From: an uncultured Pelagibacteraceae bacterium
GTDB taxonomy: Bacteria > Pseudomonadota > Alphaproteobacteria > Pelagibacterales > Pelagibacteraceae
Assembly (NCBI GenBank): GCA_902622825.1
Contig: CACNRH010000003.1
Location: forward strand, 1 to 64,000
Length of the DNA: 64,000 nt
Direction of reading: 5' to 3'
Shown here: positions 10,043 through 51,555 of the stretch, piece after piece
Numbering within the stretch: position 1 is the stretch's first letter
How the letters are laid out: the number at the start of each line of letters is the position of its first letter
Made by a program: the position numbers and the translations under genes
Notes under the pieces: model-generated
Told to the model about the DNA's origin: nothing
The model's input: only the letters and a program-made list of their open reading frames with translations
The model's database searches: none

Positions 10043-12659
<2,617 letters not shown>

Positions 12660-33676: not shown

Positions 33677-34603
33677 TTATGCAGTTGCAGATAAATTGAT
33701 CTTGGATTTTTTTAAGTCTTTTGTTATTAGCTCTATATTTTCGAGATCAATTAGGACGAAATTTGAACTTTCTTCAAAAATTTTTTTTAGTAAGCCTATA
33801 GTCATTTTGTGTCCACCCTCTTTGCAAGATACATTACCTAAAACTCTTGAGCCTGAAAGCATCATATCACCACATAGATCTAATATTTTATGATTTACAA
33901 ATTCGTTTTTATTTCTCAAGCCACTTGGATTTAAAACCTTGTCATTATCCACGACTATTGCATTATCTAAAGATCCGCCTTTAGCAAGTCCCGCTTTTTT
34001 AATTTGTTCAATATCTTTATAAAGACAAAAAGTTCGAGATGAGTATATGTCTTTTAATTGATCTTTATAAAAATCAACTTTATTTTTTTGATTACCTATA
34101 ATTTGATTTTCATAGCTTAATTCAAAATCTATGCTTAGACCAAAATTGTTTGGCTTTATCTCTATAGACTTAGTGCCATCTTTTAAATTTACTTCTTTGC
34201 AGATTTTCACAAATTTTCTTTTTTTTAATTGTTCCTCTGTTCCAGCGGTTTTTATTATTTCTATAAAATCTGATGATGAGCCATCCATAATTGGAACCTC
34301 ATTATTATCTATCTCGACTATCAAGTTGTCTATACCAGTTATGTATATAGCTGCCATCAAATGCTCAATCGTACTGACAGAAACACCGCTTGAATTTGAA
34401 ATTGTTGTGCATAGTTGCGCTGATGAAACATTTTTATATTCGGCTTTAATAAATTGATTTTTCTTTACATCAGTTCTTTTGAAGATTATCCCAGTGTTTT
34501 CTTCAGCAGGAATTAAAGTTACTTTTGCCATATTGCCATAATGCAAACCGACTCCCTTAAAGGAGATATTTTTTTTTATTGTATGTTGCAGATAATTATT
34601 CAT
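33677..34603 (-). CDS. lpxC: UDP-3-O-acyl-N-acetylglucosamine deacetylase
   Basis: GVGLHYG, STIEHLMAAI, HKILDLCGDM. Internal start MNNYLQHTIKK preferred over the ORF start at 34666. Confidence 0.94.
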   Translation of the reverse strand: MNNYLQHTIKKNISFKGVGLHYGNMAKVTLIPAEENTGIIFKRTDVKKNQFIKAEYKNVSSAQLCTTISNSSGVSVSTIEHLMAAIYITGIDNLIVEIDNNEVPIMDGSSSDFIEIIKTAGTEEQLKKRKFVKICKEVNLKDGTKSIEIKPNNFGLSIDFELSYENQIIGNQKNKVDFYKDQLKDIYSSRTFCLYKDIEQIKKAGLAKGGSLDNAIVVDNDKVLNPSGLRNKNEFVNHKILDLCGDMMLSGSRVLGNVSCKEGGHKMTIGLLKKIFEESSNFVLIDLENIELITKDLKKSKINLSATA

Positions 34604-34668
34604 CGAGGTAGTTATAGATTGAGATTTGGTAGAACTTAAAACAAGAAATGTTTCAAAAAATAACAAGA

Positions 34669-35859
34669 CTACTTAAATATCATTCTAAAGAACTTAGATA
34701 AAAGTGACCTTTTTTCAACTTTGATTGGTAAAGCTTCTGATTTCCACCCATTTATAACTAGACTCATAGCTGTTATATAATTATCTTCTTGTTCATCTTG
34801 GGTTTCTACGAAGGTCTCGATATTCTGGTCTAAATAAATTTTAAAATTTTTTGAAAAGTTCTTGTAAATATACGCGTCTTCAAAAGACAACTTTATAAAA
34901 ACATTTTTGTTGGCAAAACTAAGATTAATATTTTTTTTTAGCAATATATCGCAAATTTCAGATATTCTTGCATTGATAATGTCTTCAACATGTTGCAAGC
35001 TAATTTGTCTATTCTTTAAATTATTGTTATCAAAATATTTTTCTTCAATATTTGAACCTTTTTTTTTCGCGTCATTAAAGTCCGTATCTTTAATTAAATT
35101 TTGAGAATTAATTAGGCTTAGTTTACAAACTTTTGCAACGTCTTTATATATTATATCAGATCCAAAATTGAATGACTCAGAATATTTAAATGCGGCATTT
35201 TCAAAAAACGATAATTGGACATCTTTATTATTTATTTGAATATCAACTATCTTTTTTTTTCCCAAAAATGTATTTATTGAATTTATTCCTCTTATAAAGT
35301 TTTTTAAAATAATTCTTTCAACATCTAAATTACATGAGTTACACAATGCATTTATTCTTCTTTTTTCATCACTATCAATTAAAAAAAAGGATAAGGAGTG
35401 CCCATAAAAATCAGCTGTTGAATTTATAGGAATAGATTCTACTTCTTTAAAATCTAAAATAAAATTAGTATTGAAAATATGAATGATGTCTTTATTTTTT
35501 TCGTTATTGAGTACGTCTGTTTTAAGTTTATTTATCAAAAAGGTTACATCATCATTATTTATTTTGGATCCGAGCATATTTTTTGAGCTTGATACATTAA
35601 TATTATTAGAATTGTAGTAATTCAGTATGACTATTATTTTGTGAAAAATTTTGCTACTTTTTTTTTCTAGTTCATTTAGTGTTTTTTTTAATCTTTTTTT
35701 TATTTCATCATTTATAATTAACTTACCATTTTCCACACATGTTAATTCTATAATTTCTTTTTGAATGATTGATAAGATTTTATCTTTTTCTAAAATGACT
35801 AAAAATATTAAAGACCTATCATTAATTTCTAAAAATAATTTAACATTTTTCTCTGGCAT
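34669..35859 (-). CDS. ftsA: Highly diverged FtsA-like protein lacking canonical ATP-binding motifs
   Basis: Position between ftsQ and lpxC. IVDIQINNKDVQLSFFENAAFKYSESFNFGSDIIYKDVAKVCKLSLINSQNLIKD aligns with the FtsA DIGGGTTD...GGDxIT.DIA...AExLK region. C-terminal amphipathic RSLLSKFFRMIFK. Confidence 0.72.
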   Translation of the reverse strand: MPEKNVKLFLEINDRSLIFLVILEKDKILSIIQKEIIELTCVENGKLIINDEIKKRLKKTLNELEKKSSKIFHKIIVILNYYNSNNINVSSSKNMLGSKINNDDVTFLINKLKTDVLNNEKNKDIIHIFNTNFILDFKEVESIPINSTADFYGHSLSFFLIDSDEKRRINALCNSCNLDVERIILKNFIRGINSINTFLGKKKIVDIQINNKDVQLSFFENAAFKYSESFNFGSDIIYKDVAKVCKLSLINSQNLIKDTDFNDAKKKGSNIEEKYFDNNNLKNRQISLQHVEDIINARISEICDILLKKNINLSFANKNVFIKLSFEDAYIYKNFSKNFKIYLDQNIETFVETQDEQEDNYITAMSLVINGWKSEALPIKVEKRSLLSKFFRMIFK

Positions 35860-35861
35860 AA

Positions 35862-36515
35862 TTATTTTAAGATTAATTGATCTTTAATGCGGTAATCAAA
35901 CACTGAGTGATTTTTAATTAAATTGTTATCTAAATTGAGATAGTTTGTAATACTATTCTTATAATCCAATTTGGGTAACTTAATCAATTTTTTATTTTTT
36001 GTTAGAATATCCCATCTGCCTACCTCAAAATAATAATATGCTTTTATATTATTCAAATTGAAATTGAGAAGTCCTAAATCTTCATAAAATTCTACAAATT
36101 TTTTGTAATCACCAAAAACATTTGGTAATTTATTATTTACAATATCTTTATTGAATTTCAGTAATTTGTTATCTCTGGAGAGAAAAAATTTATCCTTATT
36201 TTTATTTACAATAGCAATAATTTCTCTTTCTTTTATTTTAATTACGATTTTGTCTGGGTAAACTTTTTTTAGCGATGCGTTTTCAATAAACTCGTAATCA
36301 TTTATCAAAGAATTAACTTTTTCTATATTGAGAGCCATTAAATTAGTTTCGTATAATATGGATAATTCTTTTGTAATTTCTTTTTTTGAGATATTTTTAC
36401 CTGTGGATACCTCTATCTTTTTTATTGGAAAAAATTCAATTTCAACTTTTGGATTATATGTAGGTAATAAAAAAAAAGATATAATAATTAAATATTTTAA
36501 GTTTTTATTTATCAT
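35862..36515 (-). CDS. ftsQ: Cell division protein FtsQ
   Basis: TM plus POTRA-like IEKVNSLINDYEFIENASLKKVYPDKIVIKIKEREIIAIV; dcw position. Confidence 0.85.
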   Translation of the reverse strand: MINKNLKYLIIISFFLLPTYNPKVEIEFFPIKKIEVSTGKNISKKEITKELSILYETNLMALNIEKVNSLINDYEFIENASLKKVYPDKIVIKIKEREIIAIVNKNKDKFFLSRDNKLLKFNKDIVNNKLPNVFGDYKKFVEFYEDLGLLNFNLNNIKAYYYFEVGRWDILTKNKKLIKLPKLDYKNSITNYLNLDNNLIKNHSVFDYRIKDQLILK

Positions 36516-50094: not shown

Positions 50095-51555
50095 TTAAAA
50101 TTTTTGTTTTCTTAAAAATGCTGGGATTTCAAAATCCTCTTCGATTTCATCCTCAGTTTCGAACATTTTTATTGAATTTATATCATCAGCAAGATTGATG
50201 TTATCATTTGTGTCTACCTTTTCTTCTGAGAACAATTTAGGTGCACCAGCCTCGGCTTCATTAATGACATCTTTATCTTTAAAACTATCTAGATTATTCT
50301 CCTCAATATATGAGGTATTCTCAATTGATACGCCGTTTGCCTCTTGAAAATTGAGATAATCTTTTTTAGCATTTTCTTGAGATTCAATCCTTTGATTAGA
50401 TAAATGACTATGAGGTTGTATCTGCTCTCTTACCTCAAAATTTTCATCCAATTTTAATGCTGTTGCTCCATCAATGAGATTAATTGCATTGTTTTGAGGT
50501 TTGGCTGAATTAAATAGATTTTCTGAGTAACCATGATTTCTATTATGTATTCTGCTTCTCATGTTTAAAACTGTTCTTGTCTGAGCTTGATTACCGTCTA
50601 ATGCGGTAGCTACAATAGAGACTCTTATTTTACCGTTCATATTCTCATCTTTAATAGCTCCAAATATTGACTCAGCTTCTGGATCTACCTCAGCTCTAAT
50701 CTTATTTGTAATTTGATCTACTTCAAAAAGTGTTATGTCTTTTCCACCGGTTATATTTACTAATAATCCCTTAGCCCCCTGTAATGTATACTCATCGATT
50801 AGGGGATTGTTTAACGCCATTTCAGTCGCGACCATAGCTCTATTTTCCCCTTCTGCTTCACCAGTTCCCATCATCGCTTTACCCATGGCGCTCATCACAG
50901 TTTCGACATCAGCAAAATCCAAATTTATCATTCCAGGTCTGACCATCAAATCAGTTATACTTTGAACTCCATTTTTTAAAACTGCGTTCGATAAAGAAAA
51001 AGATTCTTCAAAACCTGTTTTCTCATTAGCGATTTTAAAAAGATTTTGATTTGGAACAACAATTACAGTATCTAAATGTTTTTTAAGTTCCTCTAGTCCC
51101 TCAACAGCTCTTCTCATTCTTTTTGGACCTTCGTACGAAAAGGGAAGAGTAGTAACACCAACTGTAAGTATATTTAACTCTTTTGCTGCTCTTGCTATTA
51201 CGTGCGAAGCACCTGTTCCAGTTCCACCACCCATGCCAGCAGTTATAAAAATCATATTACTTCCTTGAATGTAATTCACTATTTCATTCATTGACTCGTC
51301 TGCAGCTGCTTGACCTATATCTTGCTTTGCGCCAGCTCCTAAACCTTTGGTCAAGTTCATTCCAATTTGGATTTTAGCGTCAGCTTTATTTGCTCTTAAA
51401 TCCTGGGCATCTGTATTAACTGCTACAAACTCTACACCTTGTAGCCCTGACTCTATCATCGCATTAATAGCATTTCCGCCTGCTCCGCCAATACCAAGAA
51501 CTAAAATTCTAGGCTTTAATTCCTTTAACTCACCTCCTCCAATATTTATACTCAT
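50095..51555 (-). CDS. ftsZ: Cell division GTPase FtsZ
   Basis: GIGGAGGNAINAMIE; GMGGGTGTGASHVIA tubulin signature; C-terminal peptide EDFEIPAFLRKQ. Confidence 0.97.
   Translation of the reverse strand: MSINIGGGELKELKPRILVLGIGGAGGNAINAMIESGLQGVEFVAVNTDAQDLRANKADAKIQIGMNLTKGLGAGAKQDIGQAAADESMNEIVNYIQGSNMIFITAGMGGGTGTGASHVIARAAKELNILTVGVTTLPFSYEGPKRMRRAVEGLEELKKHLDTVIVVPNQNLFKIANEKTGFEESFSLSNAVLKNGVQSITDLMVRPGMINLDFADVETVMSAMGKAMMGTGEAEGENRAMVATEMALNNPLIDEYTLQGAKGLLVNITGGKDITLFEVDQITNKIRAEVDPEAESIFGAIKDENMNGKIRVSIVATALDGNQAQTRTVLNMRSRIHNRNHGYSENLFNSAKPQNNAINLIDGATALKLDENFEVREQIQPHSHLSNQRIESQENAKKDYLNFQEANGVSIENTSYIEENNLDSFKDKDVINEAEAGAPKLFSEEKVDTNDNINLADDINSIKMFETEDEIEEDFEIPAFLRKQKF

Follow-up and report, generated by a model that had tools for sequence, protein, structure and literature searches.

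An FtsA-derived protein lacking the actin nucleotide-binding motifs in the ftsA position of a Pelagibacteraceae genome: a candidate FtsZ membrane tether

The open reading frame that occupies the ftsA position in a 64,000-nucleotide stretch from an uncultured Pelagibacteraceae bacterium (the window, i.e., the whole stretch analysed) encodes a protein which, judged on its family profile, is FtsA by descent and vertically inherited in the SAR11 lineage. All three nucleotide-binding motifs have been lost from it, whereas a putative FtsZ-binding residue pair and an amphipathic membrane helix are retained, as had been proposed in a first-pass annotation of the same DNA. We consider that this protein probably acts as a nucleotide-free, constitutively competent membrane tether of FtsZ and as a divisome adaptor. 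The role of ATP in FtsA is a long-standing question, and here natural FtsA proteins seemingly support cell division without an ATP site in a bacterial group that ranks among the most abundant in the ocean. A literature search, with coverage limited to one collection, found no paper describing an FtsA of this kind.

The gene between ftsQ and lpxC

The gene (34669..35859, minus strand; 396 aa, ATG start) lies in a mur–ddl–ftsQ–X–lpxC–bamD run, in which the last gene was named by recognition from its sequence and is presumably bamD. It is flanked upstream by ftsQ (35862..36515) and downstream by lpxC (33677..34666), both also on the minus strand, and the same slot after ftsQ in the division and envelope gene run was found in the Pelagibacterales loci in which both flanks could be read. 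The source assembly is 680 kb in size and 67% complete, and the window belongs to its contig C3. Throughout the window's genus (g1; g-numbers are group codes, and the relatives are mostly draft genomes), the slot protein is 395–400 aa long and divergent, with 30%–38% identity. A 95% identical copy (L033) is present in the uncultured Pelagibacteraceae genome AG-907-J15, which confirms that the window belongs to SAR11. An assembly artefact was ruled out by this public copy and by about 30 separate genomes sharing the feature.

As a single sequence, the window protein showed only weak similarity to curated FtsA models. It matched the NCBIfam model TIGR01174 with an E value of 6e-16 and 58.5 bits, below the cut-off of 175.85 bits, and the matches to Pfam FtsA (13.3 bits; cut-off 31.8) and Pfam SHS2_FTSA (16.8 bits; cut-off 25.4; E 0.009; residues 88–146) were also below their cut-offs. 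When 33 proteins from the window's genus and its sister genus g9 were combined, however, the resulting profile aligned with canonical FtsA over 388 columns in hhalign (99.85%, E 1.3e-30), and its matches among solved structures in the PDB were to FtsA only (best 7q6d, E 1.2e-19). The identity as FtsA is thus certain from the family profile, in agreement with the alignment to FtsA claimed initially for this ORF, and homology to FtsA alone speaks against a fold unrelated to actin folds, which had been named as grounds for refutation. The profile–profile comparison also ruled out an unrelated protein occupying the slot. An AlphaFold2 model, built from only two sequences (the window protein and its 95% relative), had a pLDDT of 31, too low for a fold to be read from it.

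With the FtsA proteins of Escherichia coli (7q6d), V. maritimus (7q6f) and T. maritima (1e4f/4a2b), the window protein shares full-length homology and the position after ftsQ, together with the IC domain, an Arg/Glu pair in subdomain IIB and the C-terminal amphipathic helix. It differs from canonical FtsA in scoring far under the curated cut-off and in lacking the phosphate-1 (P1), phosphate-2 (P2) and adenosine motifs; because of the absence of these motifs, it was filed as an FtsA-derived variant rather than as canonical FtsA.

Loss of the nucleotide site and retention of other parts

Six key residues were scored for the nucleotide site: the Asp and Gly of P1, the Asp and Gly of P2, and the Gly and Gly/Ala of the adenosine motif. 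Canonical alphaproteobacterial FtsA retained all six in 10 of 11 sequences and five in the remaining one. In the window's genus (34 sequences from 33 genomes, window included), 25 sequences retained none and nine retained one. A column-by-column alignment placed the former P1 motif (canonical IDxGSSK) at LFLEIND (residues 8–14; 35818..35838, minus strand), with the Asp mostly replaced by Glu (27 of 32) and the Gly gone. The former P2 loop (canonical DxGxGTT) reads QINNKDV (residues 208–214; 35218..35238, minus strand); its Asp column holds Lys, Glu, Gln or Asn, and the phosphate-loop and adenosine glycines are absent. Around residues 320–330, VFIKLSFEDAY (34870..34902, minus strand) stands in place of TGGxxQL (canonical VLTGGASQL).

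These alignments largely bear out the first-pass annotation, which had read a degenerate P1 motif (EINDRS) at the same stretch, had seen no adenosine GGG motif and had noted that MreB in the window keeps all three motifs. It had also described the P2 loop as changed from DIGGGTTD to DIQINNKD. The loss of the loop was correct, but the register was off by two: the family alignment puts the Asp of DxGxGTT on Q208, and D206 is therefore not the motif Asp. MreB (10043–11086), a member of the actin superfamily encoded by the same genome, differs from the slot protein in its intact nucleotide motifs, including VLTGGGA, and in its location outside the ftsQ–lpxC slot. Given the loss of the P1, P2 and adenosine motifs, the slot protein has very likely given up both ATP binding and ATP hydrolysis at the actin site.

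Alternatively, the protein might still be a nucleotide-binding actin, with a pocket rebuilt around the P1 Glu and the conserved FGSDIIxKD and with a cycle of ATP or another nucleotide retained. The prevalence of Glu in the P1 column is consistent with this idea, as is the retained FGSDIIYKD (35140..35166, minus strand; canonical IGGxHxTND), whose Gly233 and Asp240 are invariant among all relatives that possess domain II and could belong to an altered pocket. Furthermore, ATP matters for FtsA elsewhere: in Streptococcus pneumoniae, it is reported to be needed for both polymerisation and membrane attachment, and inactivating substitutions in E. coli FtsA lie mostly at the ATP site (reviewed in PMC5832921). 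This importance of ATP in other bacteria would likewise count against the tether reading. However, conservation among congeners would be expected of a rebuilt site, and the substitutions in the P2 Asp column and the missing glycines do not fit this expectation. Conservation of the adenosine columns dropped from the 100th percentile in canonical FtsA to the 1st in the g1/g9 set, among the lowest of all, and that of the P1 and P2 columns to approximately the 40th. We therefore regard a rebuilt pocket as unlikely. Since the IIB helix remained at the 99th percentile in the same set and the IC domain became the most conserved region, constraint has been lost at one site rather than by general decay.

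The IC (SHS2) domain, at approximately residues 81–163 (35371..35619, minus strand; approximate boundaries, with the weak SHS2_FTSA match), had a mean column conservation of 0.68 in the window's genus compared with 0.55 overall, and the profile alignment to canonical FtsA runs through it. In subdomain IIB, R298 and E301 (34957..34968, minus strand) align to R300 and E303 of E. coli FtsA in the 7q6d alignment and do not vary in any group with domain II; we take this pair to contact the FtsZ tail. The C-terminal amphipathic helix, RSLLSKFFRMIFK (34672..34710, minus strand), which is putatively membrane targeting, persists as originally noted, and its hydrophobic moment ranked 8th of the 381 16-mers within the slot protein. 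Just N-terminal of this helix lies GWKSEALP (34726–34749), in which G, W, E, A and P are invariant across g1/g9.

The dN/dS of the slot gene relative to L033 was 0.146, and the neighbouring genes ranged from 0.045 to 0.124. This value, together with the constant length and the persistence of functional parts, indicates that the gene is not in simple decay. The low identity within the genus, the truncation in relatives of genus g6 and one genome lacking part of the N-terminus (see below) might suggest that genome streamlining has left an ftsA that is relaxed or pseudogenised, its specific function gone. This explanation is hard to reconcile with ORFs that are intact and vary little in length across the genus sample, a dN/dS only slightly above that of the neighbours, invariant residues, and the persistent helix and gene slot. 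It is therefore highly improbable, and a pseudogene was rejected on the basis of dN/dS and length constancy, the evidence of selection largely refuting it.

Proposed role of the slot protein

Canonical FtsA binds the FtsZ tail and carries a C-terminal helix, by which together it links FtsZ to the membrane, and it interacts with FtsN through the IC domain (PMC7613929; PMC5832921). In the slot protein, the ATP site is gone and two binding faces are kept, so a constitutive tether and adaptor is the simplest reading. The C-terminal amphipathic helix would lie on the membrane, the IIB face with R298 and E301 would hold the FtsZ C-terminal peptide, and the IC domain would touch the downstream divisome (FtsN or others), whereas switching, polymerisation or membrane release under the control of ATP would not occur. 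We infer the nucleotide-free state, the tethering of FtsZ, the polymerisation state and the IC partner from the sequence. The presumed partner site is the FtsZ C-terminal peptide FEIPAFLRKQKF (50098..50133, minus strand).

The cytoplasmic domain of GspL in type II secretion has an FtsA-like fold that is described as not binding a nucleotide, and serves as an adaptor in a membrane complex. It may be likened to the slot protein, but only as a conceptual precedent for a nucleotide-free FtsA-like adaptor, as it works in another machine, has no link to FtsZ and differs in domain content and membrane anchoring. SepF and ZipA are nucleotide-free membrane tethers of the FtsZ C-terminal peptide, similar to the role proposed here, although they belong to families unrelated to the slot protein, which had no SepF or ZipA Pfam match.

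A second canonical ftsA elsewhere in the genome, which the first-pass annotation had named as evidence against its reading, was absent among the FtsA-model matches in the source assembly (67% complete). These matches were the slot protein itself, MreB and a DnaK-length protein (a 644-aa frame on contig C1). Owing to its incompleteness, the source assembly alone cannot exclude a second copy, but congeners more than 90% complete had the same number of FtsA-model matches as the source genome, which argues against one.

In many proteobacteria, ftsZ directly follows ftsA. Unlike this canonical arrangement, the window's ftsZ (50095..51555, minus strand) is separated from the FtsA-slot gene by approximately 14 kb of mur/fts genes and lies beside an rsmH/mraW-like gene.

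Variation across Pelagibacteraceae

The six nucleotide-site residues are kept in genera g5, g7, g8, g52, g53 and g56, are eroding in g51 and g55, and are all gone in g54; the motifs are also lost in the sister genus g9. A phylogeny built from murB, ddl, lpxC and bamD grouped g1 and g9 in one clade (support 100/99) and placed g54 on the other side, in a group containing g6 (support 97/99). Because these lineages are apart in the tree, the ATP site has disappeared on at least two occasions from proteins that remained full-length.

A more drastic change was found in the sister genus g6, in which the slot protein is either 368–388 aa or 222–244 aa long (short loci: L064, L065, L067, L069, L071–L076 and L079–L081). 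The short form consists of IA, IC and the membrane helix, and domain II, carrying both the ATP site and the FtsZ-binding face, has been excised. Its alignment with the long form covered the first 185 columns (E 6.4e-35), and the C-terminal segment was also kept. In G074, the in-frame loss of approximately 139 residues corresponds to IIA plus IIB, and the flanks are 40% and 63% identical to those of a long relative. An AU test rejected the grouping of the short forms in one clade (p 0.0003), which rules out that they arose once; domain II was excised in g6 in at least two events, or three if the excision is irreversible. In the single-contig genome G073 (L071), the slot protein has only 174 aa and is N-terminally shortened, with stop codons upstream, so that erosion has here extended to the N-terminus.

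The family evidently tolerates loss of the nucleotide site, since g54 lost it independently and other members excised domain II altogether. On balance, we lean towards the broader view that Pelagibacteraceae have repeatedly shed the FtsA nucleotide cycle, by at least two losses of the site with the tether kept (in g54 and in the clade of g1 and g9) and at least two excisions of domain II in g6, leaving a half-FtsA of 222–244 aa (IA, IC and helix). The full-length proteins without the site and the close relatives without the whole nucleotide-binding half are natural experiments in which tethering can be separated from polymerisation and from divisome signalling. They also prompt one to ask how FtsZ holds to the membrane once domain II is absent.

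The sequence EIPAFLR was present in FtsZ of every family member examined, even where FtsA has no FtsZ-binding domain. A search for two anchors, ZipA and SepF, in 17 genomes of the family (16 at least 90% complete) found neither. As the FtsZ peptide is kept and neither anchor was found, tethering of the Z-ring in the short-form species must presumably take another route. Alternatively to the tether reading, the slot protein of the window's genus might serve only as a divisome adaptor, in which the IC domain and the membrane helix matter for FtsN/FtsW signalling and FtsZ is tethered otherwise. The many g6 species that keep domain I and the helix alone, yet retain the FtsZ peptide, would fit such a role, as would the strong conservation of IC in the window's genus. 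Nevertheless, every sequence with domain II carries the R298/E301 pair unchanged, and no copy read from the window's genus has lost that domain. An adaptor-only function is accordingly doubtful there, and the combination of FtsZ tethering with adaptor function remains the preferred reading for the window protein.

The extreme end of FtsZ also varies by clade: RKQKF or RRQKF occurs only in g1/g9, RRQKN in g6 and RRQTN in g5, g7 and g8. The end specific to g1/g9 may reflect co-adaptation. In one member of another family of the order (G037, L119), FtsZ lacks the usual C-terminal peptide and ends in EKDLGP; this sequence lies at a contig start, where it is perhaps incomplete or misread. Two further genomes showed irregular ftsA loci. 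G352, labelled g5, carries a complete ftsA slot of g1 type as well as a complete one of g5 type (L166 and L167), probably through contamination, and in G379, ftsA is broken along with its broken neighbours, probably by an assembly error.
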